From a virus, in IMG/VR virus record IMGVR_UViG_3300032931_000192, positions 1 through 22,999 of that record: a stretch of DNA of 22,999 nucleotides, one strand, 5' to 3'. Both the position numbers and the translations under genes were made by a program. Positions 3,660 through 22,999 of this stretch are shown piece after piece. Numbering within the stretch: position 1 is the stretch's first letter; every line of letters begins with the position of its first letter. The notes under the pieces are model-generated. The model saw only the letters and a list, made by a program, of their open reading frames with translations, was not told the DNA's origin and made no database searches.

Positions 3660-3669
3660 CGTGTAAACG
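3660..3669 (+). repeat. CGTGTAAACG word, copy 1 (non-coding)
   Basis: This exact 10-mer lies in the divergent control region, 9 bp beyond the palindrome. It is the only copy outside coding sequence. The word is imperfectly symmetric (8 of 10 positions). Confidence 0.8.
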
Positions 3670-3703
3670 CCGATCCGGCCCGCTGCGGTAGAGTCGGAAA
3701 AGA

Positions 3704-3737
3704 CAACGGCCCCGCGGCTTGCGCTGCGGGGCCGTTG
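3704..3737 (-). terminator. hairpin, probable leftward-reading intrinsic terminator
   Basis: The arms CAACGGCCCCGC (3704-3715) and GCGGGGCCGTTG (3726-3737) form a perfect 12-bp stem with a 10-nt loop. On the minus strand the stem is followed by TCTTTTCC, a modest U-run. On the plus strand no T-run follows. It would stop antisense transcription coming from the right before it reaches the leftward operon. On the rightward transcript it would be a leader hairpin of the primase mRNA, just upstream of its ribosome binding site. Confidence 0.55.
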
Positions 3738-3768
3738 CTCCCGGTGGAGGCCGGGGAGGGAGGCGACC

Positions 3769-5865
3769 ATGCTGTTCCCGACCGGCACTCTAGCAGATCA
3801 ACCAGCCCCAAGGAAGACCATGCCGTCCCAGACAGTACCGGCCAAGCGAGGCCGCCCAGCACTGAAGAAGGTCCCGGAGCCCACACCGGACGAGAGCCTG
3901 GAGGCGTCCAGGGAGTTCATGCTCAGGGACCTGAAGCGATCAGGCCTGACCCCGGCGCACATGCCCGTGGAGCCCCTCCCGGTCAGCACCTGGAAGGCCC
4001 CGGCCTACCGAATCCACTACCCGGCAGCGGGCGAGGGCTACCACCGGGACAGGATCGACCGGGACGAGGCGAAGTACATGCAGCCTCCGGGGACCCCGAC
4101 CTACCTCTTCACCCGCTCGGTCGACGAGTACGACCTCTGGCGGGAGTCGAAGCTGAAGATGATCGTCGAGGGCGAGAAGAAGATGGTCGCCGGCTGCCTC
4201 AGGCTGGGCGTCCCGTCGGTCGGTGTGGGCGGTGCCCACGCGCCCCTCACCGGGGGCGAGCTTGACCCCTGGATCGTCCAGGGCGTGGGCCCCGGGGATC
4301 GGGTCCTGGTGGTCTACGACGGGGACGTCGTGACGAACGCCTCTGTGGGGGCCGCGGCGGCCTCCCTGGCGAGACTGATCGAGGGCCTGGGGGAGAGCAT
4401 CAGGGTCGAGGTGGTCCTGCTCCCAAAGGGCCCGATGGGGGTCCGCATGGGCCTCGACGACTGGCTGCTCGAGGTCCCGAAGGGCAAGGAGCTTGCGGCC
4501 TTCGAGGCCCTCCCCAGGCTGGACTGGAGCCAGATGCCGGACCTGACGAGCGTCCTCATCCGCAGGTACAAGCTGCAGGTCTCGATCAACAAGGACGGCG
4601 ACGAGAAGCTCCTGCCGAACTACAGCAACGCGGCCATGATCATCGACCACTACTGGGGCAAGAAGCTCAGGACCGACAAGTACATCGGGGCGGTGTTCGG
4701 GGACAGGCCGCTGCAGGACAGCGACGACGGCTTCATCTGTGCATGGATTCAGCGTCACCACCTGGGCATGTTCCCGGTCGACACGATCGTCAAGGCCCGG
4801 AGGCACGCGACCATGCTCAGGAGCGGGAACGCGCTCGGTGACTGGCTGAGGGGGCTGACCTGGGACGGGACCAAGCGCGTCGATGCCTTCTGGCAGGCCT
4901 ACTGCGGGGCTACAGCGCAGCCCGAGGAGTACCTGAGGGGTGCGGCAAGGGCCCTGTTCATCGGGGCCGTCCTGAGGGCCCTGGAGCCCGACAGCAAGTT
5001 CGACTTCCTGATCACCGTCTGCGGGGCGCAGGGTGCGATGAAGACCAGTCTCTGGGAGGTCCTCGGGGGCTCGATGTACGGCAGGCCGCTGACGAACATG
5101 GCACGGCTCGACAAGGAGGACGAGATGAAGCGGATCGCCGCGGTCTCATGGCTCCTGAACTTCGACGAGCTTGCAGGCAGGGGCCGGGTCGAGTTGACCT
5201 TTATGAAGAACTGGCTCAGCCAGCGCACCGACACCTGGGTCAAGAAGTACGAGGAGAACGCCACCACCCGCATGCGAGGGTTCGTTGCGGTGGCGACCAC
5301 CAACGAGAGGGACATCCTGACAGACAGCACCGGCAACAGGCGACACCTGATCGTTGACGTCGGCCAGATCGACATCGAGAGGGTCCGCAAGGACCGTGAG
5401 CAGATCTGGGCAGAGGCCGTGGTGCTGTCCCGCAGCGTCGACCACTGGTGGGTCATTGGCGGGGCCACAGAGCAGCAGGAGAGGCACAGGGAGCACCACC
5501 CCTGGGAGGGGCAGGTGGATGCCTACCTGAGCATGTCGCTGCCGAAGCTCAAGAGTGGCGAGGAGTTCATCACCACGCCCTACCTGCTCCAGGCGGTCGG
5601 GCACGTGCGTGGAGACGAGAGCAAGGACAGGGCGGCCTCGACCAGGATGGGGCATCTGCTCCACGCGAGGGGGATGGTCAGGCGCAAGGTGCGGACCACC
5701 TACATCGACTGGGACACGGTCCCGGCCGTGGGAGAGGGCAGGCGCGACACCAGGAGGTGGATCGGGCTCCCGCCAGAGGCCATCCCCGAGACGACCTGGG
5801 TCTACGTCAGGGCGAGCGTTCCCACCGACCCCGCACCTAGGAAGCCTCCTAGGAAGAAACGATGA
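3769..5865 (+). CDS. replicative primase-helicase (Toprim-like plus VapE/SF3-type ATPase)
   Basis: This 698-aa protein has, in order, a basic N-terminus with an AT-hook-like KRGRP (26-30) and a DUF3854-type Toprim-like domain. That domain shows VEGEKK (133-138), YDGD (183-186) and GLDDWL (228-233). A VapE-type ATPase follows, with LTWDGTKRVDAFW (363-375), a Walker A-like GAQGAMKT (419-426), an acidic LLNFDEL (462-468), ATTN (509-512) and TGNRRH (521-526). A winged-helix-like C-terminus follows. Such proteins prime and unwind DNA at the phage origin. The residue before the Walker A lysine is Met instead of the usual Gly. Two starts are possible: 3769 (GGGAGGGAGG upstream) and 3820 (AAGGAAG upstream). 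About half of its Arg codons are AGG, unlike the packaging and portal genes. The iteron cluster directly behind it fits an origin recognised by this protein. Confidence 0.88.
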   Translation: MLFPTGTLADQPAPRKTMPSQTVPAKRGRPALKKVPEPTPDESLEASREFMLRDLKRSGLTPAHMPVEPLPVSTWKAPAYRIHYPAAGEGYHRDRIDRDEAKYMQPPGTPTYLFTRSVDEYDLWRESKLKMIVEGEKKMVAGCLRLGVPSVGVGGAHAPLTGGELDPWIVQGVGPGDRVLVVYDGDVVTNASVGAAAASLARLIEGLGESIRVEVVLLPKGPMGVRMGLDDWLLEVPKGKELAAFEALPRLDWSQMPDLTSVLIRRYKLQVSINKDGDEKLLPNYSNAAMIIDHYWGKKLRTDKYIGAVFGDRPLQDSDDGFICAWIQRHHLGMFPVDTIVKARRHATMLRSGNALGDWLRGLTWDGTKRVDAFWQAYCGATAQPEEYLRGAARALFIGAVLRALEPDSKFDFLITVCGAQGAMKTSLWEVLGGSMYGRPLTNMARLDKEDEMKRIAAVSWLLNFDELAGRGRVELTFMKNWLSQRTDTWVKKYEENATTRMRGFVAVATTNERDILTDSTGNRRHLIVDVGQIDIERVRKDREQIWAEAVVLSRSVDHWWVIGGATEQQERHREHHPWEGQVDAYLSMSLPKLKSGEEFITTPYLLQAVGHVRGDESKDRAASTRMGHLLHARGMVRRKVRTTYIDWDTVPAVGEGRRDTRRWIGLPPEAIPETTWVYVRASVPTDPAPRKPPRKKR

Positions 5866-5867
5866 CT

Positions 5868-5885
5868 GTTCCCACCGTTCCCACC
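5868..5885 (+). repeat. tandem iteron pair (GTTCCCACC x2)
   Basis: Two perfect head-to-tail 9-bp units directly follow the primase stop codon, with an inverted single unit at 5899-5907. The spacing of exactly 9 bp is the same in the block at 5945-5962. Confidence 0.85.
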
Positions 5886-5944
5886 TCGCTCGAAAAGTGG
5901 TGGGAACAGCGGAGAGCGAGCACTGGCGCGGCCTTGCGGCGTTC

Positions 5945-6060
5945 GTTCCCACCGTTCCTACCACTTCTATCACCTCTCTCTATCTCTTTAAAAAAAAAGA
6001 ATTATTTTATAGGCCAGTAGTAGGAGGAGAGTCGGTAGGAACGGTGGGAATGGTGGGAAC
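5945..6060. repeat. inverted iteron blocks flanking A/T-rich core
   Basis: The left arm TTCCCACCGTTCCTACC (5946-5962) is matched exactly by the complement of 6034-6050, giving a perfect 17-bp inverted repeat. A 71-bp interval separates the arms and holds the A9 tract and the ATTATTTTATA segment. A third inverted unit (6052-6060) follows. Head-to-head iteron blocks could load the initiator on both sides of the melting region, or the arms could form a cruciform. Confidence 0.85.
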
Positions 6061-6160
6061 GGAACGCGCAAACCCGCGCCAATCCTAGCTCTCCCGTTAC
6101 CCCACCTCTGTTCCCACCTGCACCCCCGTGTGGGAACGGATGCCCCCGGGGGTATAGGGG

Positions 6161-6190
6161 TTGCGGATTTCGCCGCCGCTACAGTAGAAT
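6161..6190 (+). promoter_or_regulatory. sigma70-like promoter for the packaging/structural genes
   Basis: TTGCGG (6161-6166), an 18-bp spacer and TAGAAT (6185-6190, one base from consensus) lie immediately before the terS-like gene. The predicted start site falls at about 6197, at the ATG itself (6198), implying a leaderless or nearly leaderless mRNA. The -35 is weak. Confidence 0.5.
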
Positions 6191-6197
6191 ACGCGGC

Positions 6198-6575
6198 ATG
6201 TCAAGCCCCCGCCGCCGCCCGCCCCCGCCACGCCGCTCGGTGGGTAACTCAGCACCTGAGCCGGCGGCCGTGGCCGTGGCCGAGGCCCTGCCCCAGGTGC
6301 GGGCCTACCAGCGCATGCCCGAGATGCAGCACATGGTGCTGGACGTCTTCCAACGCGCCGGTGGCCGTGCGGCCATGGTCGAGTGGGCCAGGCAGAACCC
6401 CGGGGACTTCTTCACCAAGGTCCTGCCCAGGCTCATCCCTGCCACGCTCGCTGGCGGCCTCACGGGCAACATCACCGTCGTGGTCGAGGGCAACAACGGA
6501 GTGCCCGCCCAGGCCGTGCCTGGGGTCCTGAACAGCATCGTGGCGGGTGCCGTCGGGAGCGTCGACCCGACATGA
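6198..6575 (+). CDS. terS: terminase small subunit-like DNA-packaging protein
   Basis: This 125-aa product lies just upstream of, and overlaps by ATGA, the large terminase gene, which is the usual place for the small subunit. It starts with a very basic, Pro-rich leader (SSPRRRPPPPRR). A helical middle and the segment MVEWARQNPGDFFTKVLPRL follow, then IPATLAGGLTGNITVVVEG. From memory this resembles the C-terminal half of small terminase subunits of podovirus-type phages ('W----P-DFY--L---LIP'). A complete N-terminal helix-turn-helix is not obvious. Small subunits recognise the packaging site and feed DNA to the large subunit. No Shine-Dalgarno precedes the ATG, so it may be translated from a leaderless message. 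Confidence 0.65.
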   Translation: MSSPRRRPPPPRRSVGNSAPEPAAVAVAEALPQVRAYQRMPEMQHMVLDVFQRAGGRAAMVEWARQNPGDFFTKVLPRLIPATLAGGLTGNITVVVEGNNGVPAQAVPGVLNSIVAGAVGSVDPT

Positions 6576-7927
6576 CCACGGTACGTGTAAACGGGGGCAT
6601 GACCCCCAGGCACTACCAGCGACCGTACATGGACGCGATGGACGCCGGCTGCAAGTTCGCGGTCTGGGTGATGCACCGACGAGGCGGCAAGGACCGCACG
6701 GCCCTGGCCCAGGTCGCCAAGGACTCCTTCAAGCAGGTCGGCCTATACTGGCACTGCCTGCCCACGCTCAAGCAGGCACGCAAGGTGGTCTGGGACAACA
6801 TCGCGAGCGAGGGCAAGAACCTGATCGACGCGACCTTCCCGCGCGAACTCATCGCCAAGCAGCACCAGGACGAGATGAAGATCGTGCTGCGCAACGGCAG
6901 CATCGTGCAGTTGGTGGGCGCGGACAACTTCAACAGCCTCGTCGGTGCCAGCCCGCGACACGTGACCTTCAGCGAGTGGAGCCTGACAGACCCGAGGGCC
7001 TACGACTTCGTCAGGCCCATCCTGCGCGAGAACAAGGGCAGCGTCAGCTTCATCTACACGCCCCGGGGCTACAACCACGGGTGGAAGACGCTGCAGATCG
7101 CCAAGAAGCTCCCAGGGGCCTTCTGTGCCCTGATGCCCATCACGGCCACTGGCGTGCTCACAGAGGCCGACATGGCTCTCGAGCGTGCCGAGGGCATGGC
7201 CGAGGAGTTGATCCAGCAGGAGTACTACTGCGACTTCAGCGCGGCCAACGTGGGCGCGGTCCTCGGCTCCCGCATCAGCAAGGCCGAGCGTGCAGGCAGG
7301 CTGCATGAGCGCGTGCTCTGGTCCCCAGGCTCTCGCGTGGTGGTCTCGAGCGACATCGGCTACCGGGACACGGCCGCCTTCTGGTGGTGGCAGATCAACG
7401 CTGGCGGCTTCGAGCTTCTGCACTACGACGAGGGCAGCGGCCTCGACGCCGATGACTGGGTCGGCCGGCTGCAGGCCGTCGGGCTGCCGATCCACAAGCT
7501 CTACCTGCCGCACGATGCGAAGGCCAAGACCTTCCAGACCAAGCGCTCGGTGATCGAGACCATGTCGATGGCCTTCGAGTGCGAGATCGTGCCCCAGGCA
7601 CGCGTCCAGGACCGCATCAACGCCGCGCGCGTGGTGGCCGAGCAGTGCGAGTGGAACAGCAGCGCCTGCGAGCGCGGCCTGGAGGTCCTGCGCGCTTGGT
7701 CCTTCGCATACGACGACGACCGGAAGGTCTTCAGTTCCGAGCCCGACCACAACTGGGCATCGCACGGTGGAGACGCCTTCAGCTACGGGGCGCTGGTGCT
7801 CCAGACCGAGGTGGCGACGCCCAAGCCCAGGGTGCTGCCCAAGGACGCTGGTGGTGCCCACCACGTGTTCACCCTCGACGACCTCTGGGATACTGTGGGG
7901 CCTCGCACGGACGCGAGGCTGGAGTGA
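6572..7927 (+). CDS. terL: terminase large subunit (packaging ATPase/nuclease)
   Basis: This 451-aa protein has an N-terminal ATPase with the adenine-side element (HYQRPYMDAM), a Walker A-like MHRRGGKDRT (34-43), and FSEW (133-136) as the Walker B/catalytic Glu region. The coupling segment PRAYDFVRPILREN and the FIYTPRGYNHGW block follow. The C-terminal RNase H-like nuclease shows acidic residues in SSDIGYRDT (D261, D266), YLPHDAK (D315) and SHGGDAF (D401). It packages concatemeric DNA into proheads through the portal and cuts it. The ATG overlaps the TerS-like stop (ATGA), indicating coupling. The frame is open further upstream, but that part is shadow of the small-subunit gene. Confidence 0.93.
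   Translation: MTTVRVNGGMTPRHYQRPYMDAMDAGCKFAVWVMHRRGGKDRTALAQVAKDSFKQVGLYWHCLPTLKQARKVVWDNIASEGKNLIDATFPRELIAKQHQDEMKIVLRNGSIVQLVGADNFNSLVGASPRHVTFSEWSLTDPRAYDFVRPILRENKGSVSFIYTPRGYNHGWKTLQIAKKLPGAFCALMPITATGVLTEADMALERAEGMAEELIQQEYYCDFSAANVGAVLGSRISKAERAGRLHERVLWSPGSRVVVSSDIGYRDTAAFWWWQINAGGFELLHYDEGSGLDADDWVGRLQAVGLPIHKLYLPHDAKAKTFQTKRSVIETMSMAFECEIVPQARVQDRINAARVVAEQCEWNSSACERGLEVLRAWSFAYDDDRKVFSSEPDHNWASHGGDAFSYGALVLQTEVATPKPRVLPKDAGGAHHVFTLDDLWDTVGPRTDARLE
6584..6593 (+). repeat. CGTGTAAACG word, copy 2 (start of terL)
   Basis: This exact copy lies 12 bases into terL, read as codons CGT GTA AAC (Arg-Val-Asn). Confidence 0.8.
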
Positions 7928-7930
7928 CGC

Positions 7931-10198
7931 ATGGAGCAGACCCAGAACAAGACCGACGAGTCCAAGGCCAACGCGGGCAAGGACAAGGGCGAGAAGCCCG
8001 ACCAGTGCGCGCGCTGGTCCCGCGAGATCGCCGCCGCCAGCAAGTGGCGCGAGAAGTTCGACCGGAGCGCACGCGAGTGCGAGAAGGCCTACGCTGACGA
8101 GCGCGACAACAGCGTCCTGGGGAACCGCAACAAGAGCAGGGTGAACCTGTTCTGGTCCAACACCCAGGTGATCCTGGCCTCGATCTACGGCAAGCTCCCC
8201 AAGGCCGAGGTCGACCGCAAGTTCGGCGACTTCCAGGACGACGTCTCGCGGGTCGCGGCCGAGATCATGCAGCGGGTGCTCAACAACGACATCGAGCGCG
8301 AGCACGACGACACCAGCGCAGCCATGCGCGATGCCGTCCAGGACCGATTCGTGGTCGGCCTGGGGCAGGTCTGGTGCCGATACGACGTCGACACCGAGGA
8401 GTACGACGCGCCGGTCCTGGACCCGACCACGCAGCAGCCCGTGATCGGCCCCGACGGCCAGCCCCGGATGCAGAAGGCCGAGCGCATCCTGAACGAGGAG
8501 GCCGAGACCGACTACGTCTACTGGGAGGACTTCCTCTACTCACCGTGTAAACGCTGGCGCGACTGCCGGTGGGTGGCGCGTGCGGTGATGATGGGCGACG
8601 CGACGCTCAAGAAGCGCTTCAAGCACCTCACCGCAGAGCAGTTGGCGATGATCCCCATGGGGGACGACGTCGGCCGCAACAAGGACAAGGCCTCGCCCGA
8701 CGAGGTCCTGAAGCACACCCCCTTCAAGCAGGCCCGGGTCTGGGAGATCTGGAGCAAGACCGACAACAAGGCCTACTGGTACGTCGAGGGCTGCGAGTTC
8801 ATGCTCGACGAGCAGGACGACCCGCTCGAACTGGAGGACTTCTTCCCCTGCCCCGAGCCTGTGGTCGCGACCACCCTCACCAAGAGCTTCCTGCCCCGCG
8901 CCGACTACGTCATGGCCCAGGACCTCTACAAGGAACTGGACAAGGTCAACGACAAGCTCTCGCGCCTGCAGCAGGCCGTGAAGGCCGTCGGGGTCTACGA
9001 CAAGAACGCGACCGAGGTCAAGCGGGTCTTCCAGGAGGCCGTCGAGAACGAACTCATCGGGGTCACCAACTGGGCCAAGTTCTCCGAGGCCGGCGGCCTC
9101 AAGGGCGTGGTCGACTGGCTCCCCCTGGACGCCTTCGCGATCGCCATCGAGCACCTCACGAACCGCAAGAACCAACTCCAGCACGACCTCTACGAGGTCC
9201 TGGGGATCAGCGACATCATGCGCGGCGCGAGCGTCGCGACCGAGACCGCGACGGCCCAGCAGTTGAAGGTCCAGTACGGCGGTGCCCGGCTCTCGAACCT
9301 GCAGAACGGCGTCGCGCGGTTCGTCTCGAGCGTGATGCGGATCAGGGCCAACATCATCTCGAACTTCTTCCAGCCCGAGACGCTCATCAAGCGCTCACTG
9401 ATCGACCGCACGCCCGACGCGCAGTACGCTCAGCAGGCCATCGAGATGCTGAAGCAGTTCGGCGTGAGCATGTACGGGATCACGGTCACCAGCGACGCTC
9501 TGGCTGCACCTGACTGGCAGGCCGAGAAGGAGCAGCGCAGCGAGTTCCTCACGGCAGCCGGTGGCTTCCTCGAGAAGGCCCTCCCGGTGGCCGAGAACAA
9601 CCCCGAGGCGGGCGTCTTCCTGCTCAAGCTCCTCCAGTGGGCCGCCGCGGGCTTCAAGAGCGGCAAGACCGTCGAGGGCGTCCTGGACGAGGGCGTGAAG
9701 GCCCTCGAGGAGGCCGCCAAGCAGCCCAAGCCGCCTCCCCCGCCCAGCCCCGAGGAGGTCAAGCAGCAGATCGCCAAGATGCAGGAGGAGAGCAAGCAGG
9801 AGATCACCCGCATCAACAACGAGAGCGCCGAGCGGATCGCCGAACTCAACAACGGCACCAAGGTCCTGCTCCAGCAGATGACCCAGGCCATGGGCGTGCT
9901 CCAGCAGCAGGCCGACATGGCCTTCCAGGCCGTCCAGATGCTGATGCAGAACCAGCAGGACCAGCAGTCGCAGCAGGCGGATCACGCCAACTCGCAGCAG
10001 CTTGCCGCGATGAACCCCCCGCCTGGCGGCCAGGAGCCCCCAGGCGGGCCGCAGCAGCCTCCGATGCCCGAGGGCCTGGGCGAGATGCCTCAGGGCCCGC
10101 AGCAGCCCCCACAGGGCGTGATGCCCCCGCCAGACCCGAACCCCATGCCGGGCATGCCGGCCCTCCCAACCGCCCCGCAACTACCACCAGGAGTGTGA
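7931..10198 (+). CDS. portal protein (head-tail connector)
   Basis: This 755-aa protein follows terL by three bases and starts after CTGGAGTGACGC. The first 450 residues show the typical portal layout for short-tailed phages: an N-terminal helix (ARWSREIAAASKWREKFDR), NLFWSNTQVILASIYGKLPK, and a middle beta-rich part. Then come the long helix and tunnel region around EHLTNRKNQLQHDLYEVLG and ISDIMRGA. The C-terminus is a charged coiled coil (about 615-665), then Gln-rich and finally Pro/Gly/Gln-rich low-complexity tail. Twelve copies would form the portal ring through which TerL pumps DNA. The low-complexity tail could form a barrel or contact ejection proteins (inference). Confidence 0.85.
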   Translation: MEQTQNKTDESKANAGKDKGEKPDQCARWSREIAAASKWREKFDRSARECEKAYADERDNSVLGNRNKSRVNLFWSNTQVILASIYGKLPKAEVDRKFGDFQDDVSRVAAEIMQRVLNNDIEREHDDTSAAMRDAVQDRFVVGLGQVWCRYDVDTEEYDAPVLDPTTQQPVIGPDGQPRMQKAERILNEEAETDYVYWEDFLYSPCKRWRDCRWVARAVMMGDATLKKRFKHLTAEQLAMIPMGDDVGRNKDKASPDEVLKHTPFKQARVWEIWSKTDNKAYWYVEGCEFMLDEQDDPLELEDFFPCPEPVVATTLTKSFLPRADYVMAQDLYKELDKVNDKLSRLQQAVKAVGVYDKNATEVKRVFQEAVENELIGVTNWAKFSEAGGLKGVVDWLPLDAFAIAIEHLTNRKNQLQHDLYEVLGISDIMRGASVATETATAQQLKVQYGGARLSNLQNGVARFVSSVMRIRANIISNFFQPETLIKRSLIDRTPDAQYAQQAIEMLKQFGVSMYGITVTSDALAAPDWQAEKEQRSEFLTAAGGFLEKALPVAENNPEAGVFLLKLLQWAAAGFKSGKTVEGVLDEGVKALEEAAKQPKPPPPPSPEEVKQQIAKMQEESKQEITRINNESAERIAELNNGTKVLLQQMTQAMGVLQQQADMAFQAVQMLMQNQQDQQSQQADHANSQQLAAMNPPPGGQEPPGGPQQPPMPEGLGEMPQGPQQPPQGVMPPPDPNPMPGMPALPTAPQLPPGV
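8544..8553 (+). repeat. CGTGTAAACG word, copy 3 (inside portal gene)
   Basis: This exact copy is read in a different frame from the terL copy: CCG TGT AAA CGC (Pro-Cys-Lys-Arg). AAA and TGT are rare in this gene, which otherwise uses AAG and TGC by eye. Confidence 0.8.
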
Positions 10199-10200
10199 CC

Positions 10201-10377: not shown

Positions 10378-10381
10378 GGTC

Positions 10382-10807
10382 GTGCCTACCTACGCATTCC
10401 GGTGCGAGGCCTGCGGCGAGGTCGAGGAGCACCTGATCCCGATGGGCGAGTACAACCGCAACCCGCCCGCCTTCTTCCACTGCTCGCAGCGGATGGAGCG
10501 GTACATCAACGTGACACCCGGCATGAGTGGTCTCGCGAACGCCCTCGCTGGCGACCGCTACTATGACGGCATGCGGGCACCCGACGGCTCGGACATCAGC
10601 ACCCGCAGCAAGCACAGGCAGTACATGAAGGACCACAACGTCACCCTGGCGGACGACTTCAAGGACACCTGGGCCAAGGCCGCCAAGGACCGGGCCGAGG
10701 GCCGCCTCGCGGGGCTCGCCGACCCGACCCGTGTAAACGACGTCCAGACCGCCATCCAGAAGACAGGAGAAGGCTATGTCCCGCAGCGGCGCGAGTCGGC
10801 GGAGTGA
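10382..10807 (+). CDS. FmdB-like zinc-ribbon phage protein, 141 aa
   Basis: The gene starts at a GTG. The leader MPTYAFRCEACGE is the hallmark of FmdB-type small zinc ribbons. The first knuckle is C8-x-x-C11; the second is incomplete (FFHCSQRM, with C34 and H33 only), so a Cys/His arrangement or loss of zinc is possible. The remaining 100 residues are a helical extension rich in charged residues. Similar zinc-ribbon proteins are often found between portal and scaffold genes in phages of this type, with no fixed role. The start has GAGG close upstream and lies five bases after the previous stop. The 3' end overlaps the next gene by 32 bp and carries a CGTGTAAACG word. Confidence 0.75.
   Translation: MPTYAFRCEACGEVEEHLIPMGEYNRNPPAFFHCSQRMERYINVTPGMSGLANALAGDRYYDGMRAPDGSDISTRSKHRQYMKDHNVTLADDFKDTWAKAAKDRAEGRLAGLADPTRVNDVQTAIQKTGEGYVPQRRESAE
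10730..10739 (+). repeat. CGTGTAAACG word, copy 4 (end of zinc-ribbon gene)
   Basis: This exact copy, read CGT GTA AAC (Arg-Val-Asn), lies 37 bases before the start of the 878-aa gene. Confidence 0.8.
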
Positions 10808-13412
10808 CGAGCTTGCTGGTGCTGCCGACACGGCAGTCACCATCGGCAAGAACGCAGTGATGCAGCCCATCGCTGGCCTCTCGGGGGTCGGCCGTGGGAC
10901 CGCGAGCATGATCGCCAGGATGCTCCGGGGCGAGGGCGTCAGGGACGCGTCTCGCGGTGCCATCGACGACGCAGTCACCACCATCGACGACGTCCAGGGG
11001 CTCGCTGGCGGGCCCGAGACGGCCGAGGGCGGCCGCAACCTGGAGGCCATGGGTGATGCCATGGACTGGGCCGCCGAGAAGCTCGGCAACCCCGTCGACC
11101 GTGCAGGCTCGGCCTCGCCCCTGGCTGGCGCGCTCCTGGCCGGTGCCGGTGCCGTGATCGACCCGACCAAGGTCGGGCGCGGCGTCAAGACCGCCAGCAA
11201 GGCAGTCAAGAAGGCGGCCGCCAGCAGGCAGATCGCCAAGACCATCGACGAGGCCGCTGCCGGCCGCTCTGCCGCGTTCGTCGAGCCGACCGACGCTGCG
11301 CAGCGCGCACGCCTCGGCCTGCTGCCGCAGGAGCTTGCCGGGTTCGGCGACAAGGCCCTGCGCGAGGCCGCTGCCGAGAAGAAGGTCGCCAGGGCCGACG
11401 AGCGGGTGGTGGAGAAGCAGAAGGGTGGTGGTGCGCGCGGCGGGGCCGCGGACGCGCGCGAGTACCGCAAGATCTACGAGACGCAGGGCTACCCTGAGGT
11501 GCTGGCGCGGGCGCTGCGCGAGACGCACCTGAAGCCCAACCCGGACGGTGGCTGGATCGGCATACCCCGTACGGTACAGAACAGGTCCGACCTGCGCGGC
11601 ATGCGCGGCAGCCTCGACCAGCAGCTTGCGCAGGGCGTGTCGGCTATCCAGTACGCAGACCCCGAGCATGGTGTCGGCACGTGGTACCCGCGAGCGCAGA
11701 ACGCGCACAGGCTCATCAACGAGCCGCACCAGTTCGACCGTGGCCTGGAAGGCGCCGCGACCTACTCGGCCGGGGTCTCGCCCGACAGCGAGCTTGCCTT
11801 CAACCTCAAGCACCAGAACAGCCGCGCACTGGGCACGTCCGAGATGGCCTACCGTGGTGCGCCGATGCGCTCCCTGGACGAGGCCGTGGCGAACGACCAG
11901 AAGGTCAAGCACGCCGCGAAGGTCGGTGAGTACCGCAACAAGAACGACTACCGGGTGCCGCTCGATTCGCCGTACGGTGTGAACGACTTCCGCATGGCCC
12001 AGAGCTACGGCTACACCGACCCGGCCGGCGACCCCTGGAAGGCCGGCGTGTCCGAGACCATGCACCCGGTGATGGACCAGGAGACGCTCCTGATGGGCAA
12101 GCGCGCCAGCGACAGGCGGCTGGGCGGCATCGACAAGTGGACCGGCTCGATCACGCAGGAGATCCCCTGGGTGCTGGGCAAGGCCGAGGACCTGTACTCG
12201 CGCGGCTACAAGGGCCGCTTCAAGGGCGACGAGCCGGGCATGCCGGGCATCGTCCAGGGCATCGTCCAGGCCCTGCGCGAGGCCAACAGCACGGTGGCCG
12301 ATTCGCTGCCCAAGCACACCCTCTCGGCCACCTACGAGGCCGCGCCGTCGGTCAGCAGCGGGCACATGGCGCAGGTGCCGGACATGCCGTTCGAGCAGCG
12401 CAGGGCCTACGGCGAGACCGGCGACTGGGCCACGCCCGCGCCGATGGCTGCGATGGACTTCGAGTCCCCGTACGGCACCATCAAGGCCGGCGAGGTCGGT
12501 GCCGGCAACCGGGACTCGATCTATCGTGCCGTGGGCATGCGCCAACTGCCCACCACCGAAGGGGAGGGCTCGTCCACCAACGCCGAGGGCGTGCATCGCA
12601 GTGGCCCGATGAAGACCGCGCGGCCCCTGATGGACTTCGCCACCGCTGACGAGAAGAAGGGCATCGGCACCAACACCATCAACCCCGACACCAAGGCTGC
12701 GGTGACGGCAGCGGAAGGCTTCCGGGCCCTGGTCGATGCGCAGGACGCAGGCGCGGCCAACCTCGCAGTGACGATGGCCGGTCGAAAGGGCAAGCAGGGC
12801 CTGCTGATGGAGCGCGCCCAGGCCCCCACGGGCGAGGAGTTGGCGAACGTGCAGTCGCTGCTCGAAGGCACCGACGCCTACGCCGTGCCCAACAACCGCG
12901 GCATGCATATCATGCAGACCTCGGACGACCCGGGCAACCGGGAGGCCGTGGTGAAGCTGCTGCGCAAGATGCAGTCGCAGATCGACGACGCCTTCCCCGG
13001 TGCCACGCGCATGGCCGCCGACAACGAGGGTGTGTACGTTCCTGGGCTGGCCAAGTACGACCCCGAACTCGACAAGATGGTGCCGACCGTGCCGGGCAGC
13101 GGCGAGGCCACCGCTGCGCAGATGCAGCGCTTCGCCGATGCGCCGCCCGAGGTGGCTCGCGGCATGAGCGAGTCGGAGGAGATCCGCAGCCTCATCAAGC
13201 AGAAGATCGACCGTGACCGCTCGATGGGCGGGGACCGCCCGGACATCCAGAAGACCCGGCAGTTCTTCGCCGAGGCCGACTGGCAGAAGGCCGTCGATCT
13301 GGTCCGCAAGGGTGCCAAGCCTGCTGCGGCAATCGCCGCACTGGGCTACTCGCTCCAGGGTATGGCAGCGCAGGAGGCGGCGGCTGCGCTCGAATCCGCC
13401 GCTCAACGATAA
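10776..13412 (+). CDS. large uncharacterised protein in the head module, 878 aa
   Basis: I do not recognise a function with confidence. The gene starts after AGGAGAAGGCT, overlaps the end of the zinc-ribbon gene, and ends 12 bases before the scaffold gene. The N-terminal 200 residues are Ala/Gly-rich with a hydrophobic stretch (LAGALLAGAGAVIDP, about 116-130). A globular region follows, with GVGTWYPRAQNAH (about 303-315) and ATYSAGVSPDSELAFNLKH (about 328-346). A second domain is rich in Asp/Gly, and a helical basic C-terminus precedes a hydrophobic Ala-rich end. The 'YSAGVSP--E--F--KH-NSRALG' block reminds me of a domain in large phage proteins catalogued as DUF7178, but I cannot verify this. 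Possible roles are a virion-packaged enzyme or an ejected protein; both are inference. Confidence 0.8.
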   Translation: MSRSGASRRSDELAGAADTAVTIGKNAVMQPIAGLSGVGRGTASMIARMLRGEGVRDASRGAIDDAVTTIDDVQGLAGGPETAEGGRNLEAMGDAMDWAAEKLGNPVDRAGSASPLAGALLAGAGAVIDPTKVGRGVKTASKAVKKAAASRQIAKTIDEAAAGRSAAFVEPTDAAQRARLGLLPQELAGFGDKALREAAAEKKVARADERVVEKQKGGGARGGAADAREYRKIYETQGYPEVLARALRETHLKPNPDGGWIGIPRTVQNRSDLRGMRGSLDQQLAQGVSAIQYADPEHGVGTWYPRAQNAHRLINEPHQFDRGLEGAATYSAGVSPDSELAFNLKHQNSRALGTSEMAYRGAPMRSLDEAVANDQKVKHAAKVGEYRNKNDYRVPLDSPYGVNDFRMAQSYGYTDPAGDPWKAGVSETMHPVMDQETLLMGKRASDRRLGGIDKWTGSITQEIPWVLGKAEDLYSRGYKGRFKGDEPGMPGIVQGIVQALREANSTVADSLPKHTLSATYEAAPSVSSGHMAQVPDMPFEQRRAYGETGDWATPAPMAAMDFESPYGTIKAGEVGAGNRDSIYRAVGMRQLPTTEGEGSSTNAEGVHRSGPMKTARPLMDFATADEKKGIGTNTINPDTKAAVTAAEGFRALVDAQDAGAANLAVTMAGRKGKQGLLMERAQAPTGEELANVQSLLEGTDAYAVPNNRGMHIMQTSDDPGNREAVVKLLRKMQSQIDDAFPGATRMAADNEGVYVPGLAKYDPELDKMVPTVPGSGEATAAQMQRFADAPPEVARGMSESEEIRSLIKQKIDRDRSMGGDRPDIQKTRQFFAEADWQKAVDLVRKGAKPAAAIAALGYSLQGMAAQEAAAALESAAQR

Positions 13413-15641: not shown

Positions 15642-15669
15642 CCCCGGGGCTCACCCCCTGGGGCTTTTT
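15642..15669 (+). terminator. intrinsic terminator after the major capsid gene
   Basis: CCCCGGGG (15642-15649) pairs with CCCC-T-GGGG (15655-15663, one bulged T) across a short CTCAC loop, followed by CTTTTT (15664-15669). It is 20 bases behind the capsid stop codon and just before the next gene's ribosome binding site. It probably ends part of the transcripts, so downstream genes receive less message. Confidence 0.8.
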
Positions 15670-15681
15670 GGAGACCAGCAG

Positions 15682-15849: not shown

Positions 15850-15876
15850 CAACCAAACCTCAGGAGCTACCTCACC

Positions 15877-16611: not shown

Positions 16612-16629
16612 GCCGAAAGGCTTGGCCTG

Positions 16630-16667
16630 GGCCCGCGCTCGATGGCTCGATGCGCGGGCCTTTCTTC
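16630..16667 (+). terminator. intrinsic terminator after the decoration-like gene
   Basis: GGCCCGCGC (16630-16638) pairs perfectly with GCGCGGGCC (16652-16660). The loop can extend the stem with TCGA/TCGA, and the tail is TTTCTTC (16661-16667). It lies about 20 bases after the stop at 16611. Confidence 0.8.
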
Positions 16668-16686
16668 ACCAACTGGAGATTCCGAC

Positions 16687-17271: not shown

Positions 17272-17284
17272 GCGAGGGGCGGCC

Positions 17285-18022
17285 ATGCCCGACTTCAATC
17301 GGTACGAGACGGCCCTGACCATCGTTCAGCGCACGCTGCGCAGGATGGGCCTGACCGTGCCCGCCTTCGTTTACACGGGCAGTGACGAGACTGCCCTGCA
17401 GATGGGGGAGCTACTGAACCAAGTCGGGCGGCGGCTGCTGACCGAGAACGATGAGGGCTGGCAGCAACTCAACAAGACCTGGGCCCTGAGCACCGTCTCG
17501 CCCACGGTCCTCTACGACCTCCCGAGCGACTACGACGCCTTCATCGACTCGACCTTCTGGAACAACACCACCCGGCTGCCCCTCATCGGCCCGGTCAGTG
17601 CCCAGCAGTGGAACATGCTCAAGGCCCGGGCCTTGGGTGCCTCCACGCTCTCGCTGATCTACAGGCTGCGGGGCTCGCAGCTTGAGTTCTATCAGGTCCC
17701 GAGCGCGATGGATCTGCGCATCGACTATCGCTCCCGGGGCTGGGTGCGGCTCGCCGACGGCTCCACCTTCAGGGACTACGCATCGAACGACGACGACACC
17801 CTGCTCTGGGACACCGAGCTAGTGTGCGCCGGTCTGAAGCTGGCCTTCATGGAGGCCAAGGGCTTCGACTCGACCGCCGCCAAGCGCGACTACGACAACC
17901 TGCTCGAGGTCGAGATCGCCGCAGACCGCGACGCACCCACCCTGAGCGCATCCCGCGGCTCGCAGGGCGAGCCTCTCATCTCGCCCTGGTTCAACCTGCC
18001 CGACACGGGCTACGGGGTCTGA
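17285..18022 (+). CDS. head-tail adaptor, tail tubular protein A-like, 245 aa
   Basis: The N-terminal segment FNRYETALTIVQRTLRRMGL (4-23) followed by a conserved helix block and the LLTENDEGWQQLNKTWALST segment match the gatekeeper/tail-tubular-A-type adaptors of short-tailed phages. So do LPSDYDAFIDSTFWNNTTRLPL-IGP and WDTELVCAGLKLAFMEAKGFD. In these phages the adaptor ring attaches below the portal and starts the tail. The start is supported by GAGGGGCGGCC. The neighbours, coiled-coil protein upstream and nozzle-like protein downstream two bases away, fit. The gene carries the one minus-oriented copy of CGTGTAAACG. Confidence 0.78.
   Translation: MPDFNRYETALTIVQRTLRRMGLTVPAFVYTGSDETALQMGELLNQVGRRLLTENDEGWQQLNKTWALSTVSPTVLYDLPSDYDAFIDSTFWNNTTRLPLIGPVSAQQWNMLKARALGASTLSLIYRLRGSQLEFYQVPSAMDLRIDYRSRGWVRLADGSTFRDYASNDDDTLLWDTELVCAGLKLAFMEAKGFDSTAAKRDYDNLLEVEIAADRDAPTLSASRGSQGEPLISPWFNLPDTGYGV
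17368..17377 (-). repeat. CGTGTAAACG word, copy 5 (minus orientation, inside adaptor gene)
   Basis: The plus strand reads CGTTTACACG, in codons TTC GTT TAC ACG (Phe-Val-Tyr-Thr). It is the only copy on the minus strand. Confidence 0.8.
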
Positions 18023-18024
18023 TC

Positions 18025-19704
18025 ATGGGCCTGACCCGTCGACAGATGGTCCCGAAGAGGACGCCCCAGAGGGCCGACCAGAGGCTCAAGACGGTCCCTG
18101 CGCCCTTCCTCGGGCTGAACTCGACCGACGCCCTCTCGGAGATGGCCCTGACCGACGCCCTGGAGATGGACAACATCATCTCCGCAGAGGTCGGGCTGGC
18201 CGTCCGCGAGGGCTACTATGCCCACGCCGCGAACGTCGGAGGGAACAGCCCCGTGAGGCCCATCGGGACCGTGATGGCCTACGCAGGCGCGCCCGCGAAC
18301 AGCATCGCGAACCCGGCCACCACGCTCAAGATCTTCGCCGCCACCGACTTCGGGATCTACGACGTCACGACCCCCGGGGACAAGGTCGCGGTGGCGGCCC
18401 TGATGGCCCTCTCCGGGACCACCGGCGCGGGCCGCATGAGCATCGTCCAGGCCACCACCGGCGGGACCCTGCAGTACCTTGTGGCCTGCAGCGAGACCGA
18501 CGGGGGCTACCTCTACGACGGCGCGACCTGGATCAAGATGACCAACATCGGCGGCCCAGGCCCCGGGATCATCACCGGCTGTGACCCGACCCTCTTCGTC
18601 CAGGTGGTGCAGTGGAAGCGTCGACTGATGTTCGTCGAGCGAGCCAGCACCCGGGTCTGGATTCTCCCCATCGACTCCGTTGGTGGTGCCGCTCAACTCT
18701 TCGACTTCGGTGCGCAACTGCGCAACGGTGGGGCCCTGCTCGGGCTCATCAACTGGACCCAGGACGATGGTGTCGGGGTCGACGACCGTCTGGTGGTCTT
18801 CGGCTCTGCAGGCGACGTCGCGATCTACGAGGGCACCGACCCGACCAACGCGGCGACCTTCGGGACGGTCGGTACGTGGTTCGTCGGAGCGCCCCCGGTC
18901 GGGCGCAGGTGCTTCACCAGCGTCGGCGGCAACCCCTACCTGCTGACCACCTTCGGGATCATCCCGGTGGCCCTGCTGGTGCAGGGCGGCCTGGACAACA
19001 TCCTCACCTCCGACACGCAGTTGCTGAAGCAACTCCGCAAGATCCAGCAGACCATCAACATCGACTTCCAGACGGCCCTCAACAGCGTCGGCTGGGAGAT
19101 GCTGATGGTCAGCTCCAAGGCCCTGTTGGTCGTTGCACGACCCCCGACCGACGGGGGCGAGCTTATCCAGTACGCATTCCACCTCCACAACAACGCGTGG
19201 TGTCGGTTCGTCGGAATCCCCGCCACGACCTGGGCGCGGGTCCTCTCGGACGTCTACGGCGGCACCTCTGACGGTCGCGTGCTCCGCCTCCTGTCAGGCT
19301 ACACCGACGGTGCCGACATCGCCGGCGCGGGCGCGACCGAGATCACCTCCAGGGTGACCCCGGCCTTCAACTACCTCGACAACCCGGCCGTCCAGAAGCA
19401 GATGCTGATGATCAAGCCGACCTTCCTCGGGCAGCAGGAGCCGGCCTGGGGCGTGGCGATGAACGTCGACTTCGAGGTGACTGCGAACCCGACCATCCCG
19501 GCACCCCCGGTGCCCGCAGGCGCGCTCTGGAACTCGGCCCTGTGGGACTCGGCGACCTGGGGAGGTGCCAACACCACCCAGGGCTCCTGGCGCTCGGTCT
19601 CGGGCCTGGGCTTCACCATGGCACCCACGGTGTTGATGAAGACCACCACACAGACCGTTCTGACCGGCTACCAGTACATGTTCAAGCAGGGAGGGCCCTT
19701 CTGA
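18025..19704 (+). CDS. tail nozzle / tail tubular protein B-like protein, 559 aa
   Basis: This large beta-rich protein follows the adaptor by two bases. The N-terminal MGLTRRQMVPKRTPQRADQR leads into VPAPFLGLNSTDALSEMALTDA and DNIISAEVGLAVREGY. From memory that is the start of the beta-propeller tail proteins in this phage group (often annotated phage stabilisation or tail tubular B-like). Propeller-like blades with LFVQVVQWKRRLMFVE, DRLVVFGSAGDVAIYEG and NNAWCRFVGIPA follow. The C-terminal end contains ALWNSALWDSATWGG (about 500-514), a W-repeat also seen in relatives. It likely forms the tail tube/nozzle through which DNA passes. No strong Shine-Dalgarno; translation is probably coupled to the adaptor gene. 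Confidence 0.75.
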   Translation: MGLTRRQMVPKRTPQRADQRLKTVPAPFLGLNSTDALSEMALTDALEMDNIISAEVGLAVREGYYAHAANVGGNSPVRPIGTVMAYAGAPANSIANPATTLKIFAATDFGIYDVTTPGDKVAVAALMALSGTTGAGRMSIVQATTGGTLQYLVACSETDGGYLYDGATWIKMTNIGGPGPGIITGCDPTLFVQVVQWKRRLMFVERASTRVWILPIDSVGGAAQLFDFGAQLRNGGALLGLINWTQDDGVGVDDRLVVFGSAGDVAIYEGTDPTNAATFGTVGTWFVGAPPVGRRCFTSVGGNPYLLTTFGIIPVALLVQGGLDNILTSDTQLLKQLRKIQQTINIDFQTALNSVGWEMLMVSSKALLVVARPPTDGGELIQYAFHLHNNAWCRFVGIPATTWARVLSDVYGGTSDGRVLRLLSGYTDGADIAGAGATEITSRVTPAFNYLDNPAVQKQMLMIKPTFLGQQEPAWGVAMNVDFEVTANPTIPAPPVPAGALWNSALWDSATWGGANTTQGSWRSVSGLGFTMAPTVLMKTTTQTVLTGYQYMFKQGGPF

Positions 19705-20144
19705 TGCTCGAGGTGAACGTGCCCAGCATGGTCTGGGAGTTCCTGCACGACAGGCTGAAGCTGCACGCCAGCGCCGACTTCAGGGGCGTCCTCTGGGCCT
19801 CCGAGGATCGTCGCGGCACGCCGATGACGATGGACGACGTCGCGGCAGCCGTCGGCTTCAACACCTTCATCGGCAAGACCTGCTGCATGCACGTGGTGGT
19901 CCAGGAGCCGCAGCACGTGACCCGGAAGATGATCCGGGACGCCTTCGACTACGCATTCAACGTCGCCAAGGTCGAGGTGATCTTCGGCCCTGTCGACTCC
20001 ACCAACGCCGCCGCAATCGAGTTCGACAAGCGGATCGGCTTCAGGGAGATCGGTCGCTTCCCGGGCGCAGGCCTCGAGGGCGATCTGGTCCTGTTCGCAA
20101 TGACCCGAGACGAGTGCCGTTGGATTCGCGGCAAGGAGCACTGA
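19704..20144 (+). CDS. GNAT-family acetyltransferase, 146 aa
   Basis: The ATG shares its first base with the stop of the preceding gene (TGATG), so translation is coupled. The C-terminal half has the GNAT signature in phages: VIFGPVDSTNAAAIEFDKRI, GF-EIGRFPGAG, then DLVLFAMTRDECRWI. The core acetyl-CoA loop, usually Q/R-x-x-G-x-G/A, is replaced by HVTRKMIRDAF, so activity is not guaranteed. Small acetyltransferases are found in the tail modules of several podovirus groups. They may modify host or virion proteins, but no substrate is known. Confidence 0.8.
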   Translation: MLEVNVPSMVWEFLHDRLKLHASADFRGVLWASEDRRGTPMTMDDVAAAVGFNTFIGKTCCMHVVVQEPQHVTRKMIRDAFDYAFNVAKVEVIFGPVDSTNAAAIEFDKRIGFREIGRFPGAGLEGDLVLFAMTRDECRWIRGKEH

Positions 20145-20145
20145 C

Positions 20146-21294
20146 ATGGGCGGCAAGAGCGGACCGGCACCCCCGGACTACACGGCCGCGGCAGAGCGGC
20201 AGGCGCAGTCCTCGCGGGAGGCCACGACCACGCAGAACTGGGCCAACCGACCGGACCAGAACAACCCCTGGGGTAGCACCTCATGGCAGTCTGCCTCGGA
20301 CGTCGACCCCTCCACAGGGCAGAAGGTCACCCGGTGGACCCAGAACACTTCGCTGAACCCGAACGTGCAGGGCGCTCTGGACTCCCAGATCGACCTGCAG
20401 CGGGGCCGCAGCGAGCTTGGCGCGAGCATGCTGGGCCGCGCCAAGCAGGAGCTTGGGCAGCCCATGGAGTGGGGCCAGTTCGGTGAGTACAAGAACGCCC
20501 CGAACGCCCGACCCTTCGAGTTCGGCAGCGCCCAGGACGCGCGCGCCAGGGCCGAGGAGAATGCCTACAAGTCCGCGACCTCTCGCCTCGACCCGCAGTG
20601 GCAGCAGCGGGCAGGGGACCTCGAGTCCCAACTCGCGAACAAGGGCATCACCCGCAACAGCGATGCCTACTCGCGTGCGATGGGCGACTTCGACCGCTCC
20701 CGGAACGACGCATACCAGCAGGCCCAGATGGGTGCCATCAGTGCAGGCGGGAACGAGGCTCAGCGGAACGTCGGGATGGACCTCAACATCAACCAGCAGG
20801 GCTTCAACCAGGACCTACAGTCCACGCAGGCCCAGAACAACATCCGCCAGCAGCAGATCGCCGAAGAGATGCAGAGGCGGGGCTTCAGCCTGAACGAGAT
20901 CAACGCCGCGATCAGCGGCCAGCAGGTCTCCGCCCCGCAGTTCCAGCCCTTCAGCATGGCCGGTGCCTCGGCCCCGGTGAACTACATGGGCGCTGCCCAG
21001 CAGCAGTACCAGGGTGCGCAGGACCAGTGGCAGAACCAGAACGCCGGCCTGGGCAACATCCTCGGTGCCGCCGGCCAGGTCGGTTCAGCCTTCATGTTCT
21101 CGGATCGCCGGCTGAAGGCCGACGTCAAGCGCATCGGGACCCACACCCTCGGGTTCGGGATCTACCTGATGCGGTACATCGGCGAGACCCGGATGCGGGT
21201 CGGTGTCATCGCGCAGGAGGTCCAACGCTACCGACCGGATCTTGTCCGGGACGGCGGTGGCGGGGTCCTCCAGGTCAACTACAAGGAGCTTTGA
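20146..21294 (+). CDS. tail-associated protein with C-terminal S74-type chaperone domain, 382 aa
   Basis: The last 64 residues (about 319-382) begin SDRRLKADVKRIG and continue with YLMRYIGETRMRVGVIAQEV, ending DGGGGVLQVNYKEL. This is the pattern of Peptidase_S74 intramolecular chaperone domains found on phage tail fibres and spikes, where the domain helps trimerisation and is often cleaved off. The first 300 residues, however, are Gln/Asn/Ala-rich and helical (NWANRPDQNNPWGS, repeated QQ and NQQG), not a fibre-like beta structure. The region near residue 305 is hydrophobic (LGNILGAAGQVGSAFMF). An ejection or tail-tip protein is as plausible as a fibre. The start has AAGGAG before it. Confidence 0.75.
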   Translation: MGGKSGPAPPDYTAAAERQAQSSREATTTQNWANRPDQNNPWGSTSWQSASDVDPSTGQKVTRWTQNTSLNPNVQGALDSQIDLQRGRSELGASMLGRAKQELGQPMEWGQFGEYKNAPNARPFEFGSAQDARARAEENAYKSATSRLDPQWQQRAGDLESQLANKGITRNSDAYSRAMGDFDRSRNDAYQQAQMGAISAGGNEAQRNVGMDLNINQQGFNQDLQSTQAQNNIRQQQIAEEMQRRGFSLNEINAAISGQQVSAPQFQPFSMAGASAPVNYMGAAQQQYQGAQDQWQNQNAGLGNILGAAGQVGSAFMFSDRRLKADVKRIGTHTLGFGIYLMRYIGETRMRVGVIAQEVQRYRPDLVRDGGGGVLQVNYKEL

Positions 21295-21295
21295 G

Positions 21296-21559
21296 ATGCC
21301 CAACAACTACGGCAAGCCCACCACAACCCTCAACGCGGTCGGCAGTCGGGGTAGGATCGTCGACAGCGCCGTCGATGCCGCCACCGGGAACGTCGACCCG
21401 ACCCCGGCCCAGAGCCAGTCGGCCGCGACCCCCTCCCGGAACGCAGGCATGAGCCAGAGCGACTTCGGCAACGGGCGCAGGCTCACCCCCGAGCAGGCTG
21501 CAGCGAAGCAGGCCAAGCTGGCGGAGATGCTCCGCCGCCGCAACCCGGAGGGCTTCTGA
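21296..21559 (+). CDS. hypothetical structural-module protein, 87 aa
   Basis: This small Ser/Thr/Ala-rich protein begins MPNNYGKPTTTLNAVGSRGR, is likely disordered in the first two thirds, and has a basic helical end (LTPEQAAAKQAKLAEMLRRR). The start follows AAGGAG inside the preceding gene's last codons. It sits two bases from the next gene. No family is recognised; proteins like this are common just before ejection-protein genes. Confidence 0.65.
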   Translation: MPNNYGKPTTTLNAVGSRGRIVDSAVDAATGNVDPTPAQSQSAATPSRNAGMSQSDFGNGRRLTPEQAAAKQAKLAEMLRRRNPEGF

Positions 21560-21561
21560 CC

Positions 21562-21948
21562 ATGTACGGCGAAGAGGACAGTCTCGACCCTGCGCTGGTC
21601 GAGCAGGTCATGGGCCTGCGTCGGCTGCAGCCGCAGCAGATGCAGCTTCAGCGTCAGCAGCAGCTTGCGGACCAACTCCGGGGTGCCTCGATGCGCGGCC
21701 CGGGGCAGGTCCAGGGCCGCCCCTCGTTCCTGCAGCCCTTCGCGCAGATGGCCCAGGGCTACGCAGGCAAGAAGCTCGACGAGCGCGCCAGCGCCGGCAT
21801 GCAGGACATCGCCGGCAAGCAGGCCGACATCCTGGGCCAGTACTTCAAGGCCGCCAGGGGCCGCAGGCCGGCGATGTCGATGGCCCAGCGTGCGCCGAGC
21901 AGCGCCATCGACGACGGCTTCTCGTCCGACCCGCAGGCGGGGTACTGA
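21562..21948 (+). CDS. hypothetical structural-module protein, 128 aa
   Basis: This Gln/Arg-rich protein has MYGEEDSLDPALVEQVMGLR at the start and a following LQPQQMQLQRQQQLADQLRG helix. The middle (PSFLQPFAQMAQGYAGKKLD) has a pattern I recall from small virion proteins in related phages, where it is followed by a large ejection protein. There is no strong Shine-Dalgarno; the start overlaps the ribosome-reach of the previous gene's stop (two bases apart). The function is unknown. Confidence 0.7.
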   Translation: MYGEEDSLDPALVEQVMGLRRLQPQQMQLQRQQQLADQLRGASMRGPGQVQGRPSFLQPFAQMAQGYAGKKLDERASAGMQDIAGKQADILGQYFKAARGRRPAMSMAQRAPSSAIDDGFSSDPQAGY

Positions 21949-21951
21949 ACC

Positions 21952-22999
21952 ATGGCAGCGATGCTCCCCCGGACCCTCCGAGGCGGCGGCATGGGCGCGC
22001 CTGGGCGGGCCCTCCCCCAGGCCGTTGGTGCGCTGCCGAACGCAGCCCCCGAGCCCGACTACGTCGACCCCTACGCTGAGCAGATCGCGGCCATGGAGGC
22101 GCGTGTAAACGCCCCTGTCGCTCCGATGTTCAGCCCGGAGGAGATCTCGCAGCGCAGGGCCGACAACAGCCACCAGTACGACATGGGGCTGCTCGGCCAA
22201 CTCTCTGGCGACGAGAGCCTCGGACAGGTCGGTGGGCAACTCCTGAAGCAGGCCCTGGCGGGCCGCAACCAGAAGGTCACCGAGCGCGGCGTCGCGGACC
22301 CCCTCACCGGGATCTTCAAGGAGGACCCGGAGTACCAGCGCCAGCGCATGGAGCAGCAGCTTGCGGGCATGAAGCAGCACTCGGCCGGCGCTCGAGCCGC
22401 CTGGAACGAGCGCCGCCAGCGCGCCGAGGAGCAGCAGGCGTTCAAGGAGATGATGGGCAACGCCCAGGCCGGGGGCGCGGCAGAGCGCCGCCAGGGCGTC
22501 ATCGACAATCGCACCTTCAACATGGGCACCAAGCTCAGGGGCGAACTCCAGAAGCGCATGGACAAGGTCAACGACGGCCTGAACCACGCGCGGAACGTGC
22601 AGCAGGCCCTGATGGACCCGAGCATCGCCCGGGACCCGACCAGGCAGGTCGCGCTGGTGTTCTCCTTCGGCAAGATGCTCGACCCCGAGTCTGTGGTGCG
22701 AGAGTCCGAGTACGCACTGATCGCCAACGCCCGGGGGGCCTTCGAGACCTTCCTGCAGACCCCCGACATCATCATGCGGGGCACAAAACTCACCGACAAG
22801 CAGCTTGCCTCGATGAGGCAGATCGCGAGCCAGTTCCTGGCCGGTGGCGCGGGCCGCGTGGACCTCGTCAAGGACCAGTACAAGGGGATCGCCAGCAGGC
22901 ACAACATCCCCCTCGAGGACGTCCTGCCCTTCGAGGCCCCCGGGCCTGGGGCCGGCGGCCAGAGGCCTCCGGGGATCGACGTCGGCGCGGCCCTCGGCG
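21952..22999 (+). CDS. probable virion/ejection protein, N-terminal part (runs off window)
   Basis: The frame is open from the ATG at 21952 to the window edge (349 codons plus one base). The N-terminus is Gly/Pro/Ala-rich, then a long charged helical region (about 110-200). A recognisable block, VALVFSFGKMLDPESVVRES plus EYALIANARG (about 233-262), is known to me from many phage virion proteins that sit behind tail genes, usually of unknown function or annotated as ejection/internal virion proteins. The following Pro/Gly-rich stretch near the edge (APGPGAGGQRPPG) looks like a linker, so more domains may lie beyond. A copy of CGTGTAAACG lies at codons 51-54. Confidence 0.75.
   Translation, partial: MAAMLPRTLRGGGMGAPGRALPQAVGALPNAAPEPDYVDPYAEQIAAMEARVNAPVAPMFSPEEISQRRADNSHQYDMGLLGQLSGDESLGQVGGQLLKQALAGRNQKVTERGVADPLTGIFKEDPEYQRQRMEQQLAGMKQHSAGARAAWNERRQRAEEQQAFKEMMGNAQAGGAAERRQGVIDNRTFNMGTKLRGELQKRMDKVNDGLNHARNVQQALMDPSIARDPTRQVALVFSFGKMLDPESVVRESEYALIANARGAFETFLQTPDIIMRGTKLTDKQLASMRQIASQFLAGGAGRVDLVKDQYKGIASRHNIPLEDVLPFEAPGPGAGGQRPPGIDVGAALG
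22102..22111 (+). repeat. CGTGTAAACG word, copy 6 (start of ejection-like gene)
   Basis: This exact copy, read CGT GTA AAC (Arg-Val-Asn), lies about 150 bases into the last gene. Confidence 0.8.

Follow-up and report, generated by a model that had tools for sequence, protein, structure and literature searches.

The stretch of DNA analyzed here (the window) comprises the 22,999 bases of a virus record that probably represents a fragment. Its capsid protein shares 60%–67% identity with the capsid proteins of Stenotrophomonas phage BUCT555 and the Myxococcus phages Mx8 and Mx9. At positions 418–1005 of the minus strand, the window encodes a 195-amino-acid, SprT-like zinc metallopeptidase whose C-terminal part is a zinc ribbon (phrog_6361); we propose this protein as the binder of a dispersed DNA word. 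Residues 4–124 (634–996, minus strand) make up the SprT-like zincin domain, with HEMVH at residues 84–88 and a third histidine at residue 97. Residues 149–195 (421–561, minus strand) make up the ribbon, which matches zinc ribbons structurally and has cysteines at 159, 162, 184, and 187; it includes Arg153 (codon 547–549, minus strand), a residue whose identity predicts the word's outer base pair in the residue-word comparison described below. The predicted structure has a pLDDT of 87.5. Foldseek alone returned no significant structure match for this model, and a second-look structural alignment placed residues 4–124 closest to the protease domain of human SPRTN (6mdx and 6mdw, Z scores of 8.7 and 8.6, respectively). 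The window protein scores 18.5 bits against the Pfam SprT-like family PF10263 (gathering cut-off 25.6), which is passed by homologues in phage Sharkboy (26.5) and genome G008 (30.7). The HExxH...H motif is intact in 131 out of 131 homologous entries, some of which are overlapping loci of one contig. SPRTN is a DNA-dependent protease (PMC5127644), and the window protein, with its SPRTN-like zincin fold and retained motif, is a putative protease.

The 10-mer CGTGTAAACG has six exact copies in the window by direct count on both strands, matching every position and strand reported by an earlier reading of the DNA from its letters (the sequence-only reading). The first copy (3660–3669, plus strand) lies in a divergent intergenic gap, and the second (6584–6593, plus) is also intergenic, with the predicted terminase start 7 bp further on. 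The remaining copies are located within the portal gene (8544–8553, plus) and within the genes at 10382–10807 (10730–10739, plus), 17285–18022 (17368–17377, minus), and 21952–22998 (22102–22111, plus). These four genic copies cover all three codon phases, in keeping with the variety of coding contexts noted earlier, although two copies are non-coding in our gene calling, rather than one. Base composition predicts 0.022 copies (0.02–0.03 had been estimated), and the figure under an order-2 Markov model is 0.001. One-mismatch copies are absent from the window, while shuffled sequences contained a mean of 0.42 sites with one mismatch or fewer. A chance origin of the six copies was rejected on the shuffle, composition, and Markov expectations. 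No other 10-mer in the window comes close to its over-representation under the order-2 Markov model. Four other 10-mers also reach at least six copies, but these are rich in G+C and have Markov expectations of approximately 0.3–0.6, and hence the equal abundance of many unrelated 10-mers, raised beforehand as an objection, was not found.

The portal gene illustrates how the word sits within a coding sequence. It reads CCG-TGT-AAA-CGC (P-C-K-R) in the window, compared to CCC/CCA-TGC-CGC/CGG-CGC/CGG (P-C-R-R) in G011–G013, the nearest structural relatives of the window, in which neither SprT nor the word was found. The difference amounts to a synonymous Cys codon and a conservative Arg-to-Lys replacement, bearing out the earlier proposal that the word forces codon choice in this gene. 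This pattern is as expected if selection acts on the DNA word rather than on the protein. Elsewhere in the window, an 878-amino-acid open reading frame (10776–13412) matched G013 alone within the set (38%) and had no PHROGs match.

Many phages, both related and unrelated, contain dispersed copies of the word or of a closely similar variant, and the further copies anticipated in relatives were thus found. In a set of 80 viral contigs that share a related capsid gene, CGTGTAAACG is in strong excess in several (e.g., six copies in L032 and three each in L057 and L062). Others have copies of another palindrome, CTTTAAAG, dispersed through their sequence; it is present 16 times in G020 and 17 times in G027 (approximately 0.01 expected). 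Genome G001 has 14 copies of GTGTAAAC and three of GTTTAAAC in 42 kb, while G022, apparently complete given its direct terminal repeats, has 11 and nine, respectively. The region upstream of the capsid gene contains GTGTAAAC in G001 and L045, and CTTTAAAG in L063 and its kin. The perfect palindromes GTTTAAAC or CTTTAAAG in relatives strengthen the view, first based on the near symmetry of the word, that it is probably the site of a dimeric binder. The word is not parS, and ParB was rejected as the binder: the ParB_N-domain protein of G001 (L091:14739–15794, minus strand) had a homologue in no other locus compared at that stage. Separately, a parS-like palindrome, GTTCCACGTGGAAC, is clustered around the genome ends of BUCT555 (L087; positions 477, 2375, 37889, and nearby) and occurs twice in L028 (756 and 810), and is perhaps a host or phage ParB site.

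Dispersed, frame-independent, and evenly spaced copies are also typical of host words, and a phage could carry such a word as an uptake sequence, iterated palindrome, recombination hot spot, or segregation site. We consider this very unlikely. The word is present in 12 or fewer copies in each of 398 sampled Pseudomonadota genomes, mostly below a reversed-word control, so the host-word analogy drawn by the sequence-only reading found no enrichment behind it in this sample. Moreover, the same word is present in phages infecting actinobacteria, cyanobacteria, and proteobacteria, where it follows a residue of a phage protein.

That residue emerged from a column-by-column comparison of shared proteins, which pointed to the SprT-like zinc-ribbon protein; the discriminating column was noticed first in the capsid-related group and then held in a wider set and in isolates. 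A SprT profile search identified 80 loci (39%–73% G+C), most of them on contigs outside the earlier set, and nearly all contigs chosen solely for encoding a SprT relative carry the word. Arginine at the ribbon position goes with GT[G/T]TAAAC, tyrosine with CTTTAAAG (with CTGTAAAG in L255), and phenylalanine with CTTTAAAG- or CTCTAAAG-type words. When SprT proteins were clustered at 90% identity, the rule held in all 46 clusters with a scorable word, comprising 39/39 Arg clusters with GTnTAAAC and 7/7 Tyr/Phe clusters with CTnTAAAG (Fisher P = 1.9e-8, the Tyr/Phe class being seven clusters only). The Arg153 column is the sole alignment column that separates the word classes without overlap, and the window itself combines Arg153 with an Arg-class word. 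A SprT tree requires five class changes, at least three of which are forced by well-supported branches, and hence the association does not reflect one inherited split. It is plausible that Arg and Tyr act as readers of different outer bases.

The association has exceptions and borderline cases. Nineteen of 58 Arg clusters fell below the score cut-off (nine of these are contigs shorter than 10 kb), with most still showing an excess of the word, and the Arg types L190 and L193 showed little or no excess. Genome G003, a 27.9-kb fragment, carries the words, and no SprT was identified in it. In G021 (L153–L155), the words are GTGTAAAT, GTTTAAAT, and ATTTAAAT, which have an A:T outer pair on one or both sides while Arg is kept, indicating that other residues matter too. 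The ribbon of G021 reads GALWRL, a hint of a second specificity residue.

Other phage-encoded proteins were compared with the word classes in the same way. A YdaS/Cro-like HTH protein (L091:5452–5784, minus strand), encoded directly after a SNF2-type helicase, accompanied the word in the first group: homologues were present in each of the 13 word-bearing genomes where it could be searched for, and in none of four compared genomes without a GT-type word. However, near-identical HTH proteins accompany different words (L128 and L139, with L138 identical to L139), and the divergent HTH proteins of G003 and G007 share one word, which led us to reject the HTH protein as the specificity factor. An early-region AT-hook or ribbon-helix-helix-like protein could be the binder instead, but the AT-hook protein does not follow the word class, and a partial comparison of gene content revealed no common HTH or AT-hook partner among distant SprT phages. 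We therefore regard binding of the word by either of these proteins as very improbable. None of the AT-hook/RHH-like protein, VapE primase-helicase, PolA, SNF2 helicase, DUF6011, and DUF2815-like proteins splits the word classes like the SprT ribbon does. A priming or origin signal for a VapE/RepB-type phage primase, used at Okazaki-like intervals, would fit the kilobase spacing and lack of strand preference, and a fast-diverging VapE protein is encoded near SprT in the first group. Nonetheless, VapE splits the word classes less cleanly (the nearest relative of the G020 protein belongs to the other class), and the residue code sits in SprT rather than VapE, making such a role highly doubtful.

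Since, across dozens of unrelated phages, the word differs in its outer letters exactly where one SprT residue differs, it is very probably a landing site for SprT. With high confidence, although from sequence comparison, we therefore identify CGTGTAAACG as the likely recognition site of the phage's own zinc-ribbon protein (418–1005, minus strand). A SprT dimer would read the near-palindrome GT(G/T)TAAAC through its two zinc ribbons, with the outermost base pair specified by Arg153, or by Tyr/Phe in other phages.

Named phages, picked by protein similarity alone, showed the same association. The word was present in nine out of nine isolates with a KKQxTR or close PKQxTR ribbon: Zeta1847 (22 copies), Powerpuff (27), Pan1 (16), R5C (17), Bogota (about 40), Arya and Mica (seven each), and ep3 and Persinger (four each), where counts of palindromic forms are both-strand output halved. 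The hosts of these nine phages are Microbacterium, Arthrobacter, Pseudanabaena, Dinoroseobacter, Streptomyces, Enterobacter, Burkholderia, Escherichia coli, and Pseudomonas. For example, Bogota contains 39 copies of GTGTAAAC, compared to 0.04 expected. Isolates with another ribbon, lacking the motif (Sharkboy, Coltrane, CN1, and Epa5), contained 0–1 copies, and the SprT-less relatives BUCT555, Mx8, Mx9, and ppBjS10J-1 contained none. Two of the isolates with another ribbon have repeats of their own, namely TACAATAGAA-type and CTATATAG repeats in Coltrane (L285–L286) and TAGATAGATA repeats in CN1 (L287–L289).

The layout of sites was assessed using 235 sites in 16 genomes or fragments (4–40 sites each). 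In most of these, the gaps between sites are more even than under random placement (P = 0.0006 in both G001 and Powerpuff; Fisher-combined P = 5e-18, a value inflated by relatedness). Most sites are inside genes, and wholly intergenic sites are enriched fourfold (72 versus 17.6 expected). Intergenic copies lie mostly in codirectional gaps, in about the number expected, many of them less than 50 bp from a start codon, and only 2 are in divergent gaps, where 7.8 would be expected. A promoter-specific role was rejected on these codirectional and divergent gap counts, and the special weight that the sequence-only reading had given to the copy beside the early promoter was not borne out by the low divergent-gap count. 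In 11 out of 14 genomes, a site precedes the SprT start at a distance of 13–77 bp; these 11 are not all independent (the SprT proteins of G019 and G026 are near-identical). The position of the site just before the gene suggests autoregulation. In the window, the SprT gene has no upstream site within 2.6 kb, the nearest being 2,656 bp away.

These features bear on what a bound SprT may do. It is possible that the array acts in silencing and immunity in the manner of stoperators, with SprT bound to the word, blocking transcription at many places and controlling its own synthesis; in temperate SprT phages, SprT would then be the missing repressor. The dispersal of the sites with group-specific variants, the intergenic enrichment, the proximity of many sites to start codons, and the frequent site upstream of SprT are all consistent with this. 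So is Arthrobacter phage Powerpuff, with its 27 sites, which is temperate and forms immune lysogens, and in which its authors found no identifiable repressor (PMC8758107). However, sites with the asymmetric form show no preferred orientation relative to the gene that contains them (52 same and 48 opposite, palindromic forms being common), while reversing the L5 stoperators abolishes repression (PMC9283540). Sites are also not enriched in divergent promoter gaps, the metallopeptidase motif retained throughout the homologues would not be needed by a mere repressor, and no integrase was noticed in G001, as seen in passing rather than by a systematic search for lysogeny genes.

The stoperator analogy offered by the sequence-only reading fits in some respects and not in others. 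In the cluster A mycobacteriophages L5 and Bxb1, tens of short repressor sites are spread genome-wide, their group variants match the binder, and one site lies close to the gene that encodes it (PMC6550527, PMC9283540). The word is similar in having many dispersed copies, enrichment near gene ends, group variants, and a site before SprT. The two systems differ in that the word is a near or full palindrome, rather than an asymmetric site oriented with transcription, and that most of its sites are inside genes. Stoperators are bound by a two-domain HTH repressor, whereas here the candidate binder combines a SprT-like zincin domain with a zinc ribbon, and the word tracks this protein in preference to the HTH protein examined. 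Furthermore, the word system is found in unrelated phages of many host phyla.

Our first choice, held tentatively, is that the sites dock a protease. Copies kept at roughly even intervals genome-wide, inside and between genes, would provide the metallopeptidase with a landing place every few kilobases, and so restrict its action to phage DNA, where docked SprT might, for example, remove or cut proteins tightly bound to that DNA. The retained catalytic center and the even, non-oriented grid favor docking of a protease across the whole phage genome. Regulation is favored by the enrichment of sites close to gene starts and upstream of SprT, and our second choice is that bound SprT may mainly regulate transcription, including that of its own gene.

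Known systems share only parts of this arrangement. The window protein resembles the SPRTN/SprT family in its HExxH...H zincin domain (Z score of 8.7) and C-terminal zinc-binding ribbon. To our knowledge, SPRTN has no sequence-specific genome-wide sites, whereas a ribbon residue of the phage SprT co-varies with a dispersed DNA word. The dispersed inverted repeats of phiC31 and the C1 operators of P1 likewise pair a phage-encoded binder with many scattered operators, although the proteins are unrelated and the sites longer, and we know of neither even spacing nor a one-residue code in those systems. In open-access text, we found no description linking the word to SprT or assigning a genome-wide grid of sites to a protein of this kind.

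Overall, we consider it reasonably probable that phages widely use a system that directs a SprT-type metallopeptidase to their DNA by means of a roughly even, sequence-specific grid across coding and non-coding DNA, with a one-residue Arg/Tyr code. Such a system could serve as a genome-wide DNA-tethered protease or as an immunity factor of temperate phages that lack a repressor. If correct, this would provide a function and a target for a family that annotations of many phages list only as "SprT-like protease" or "hypothetical", account for a hidden layer of selection acting on the phage genome as a whole, and make binding specificity predictable from one residue. SprT would also be a specific candidate for the repressor that is missing in Arthrobacter cluster AZ and Microbacterium cluster EH phages, a question raised in the literature (PMC8758107). 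If it is instead a site-tethered protease, it would represent a new viral way to confine proteolysis to the virus's own DNA.
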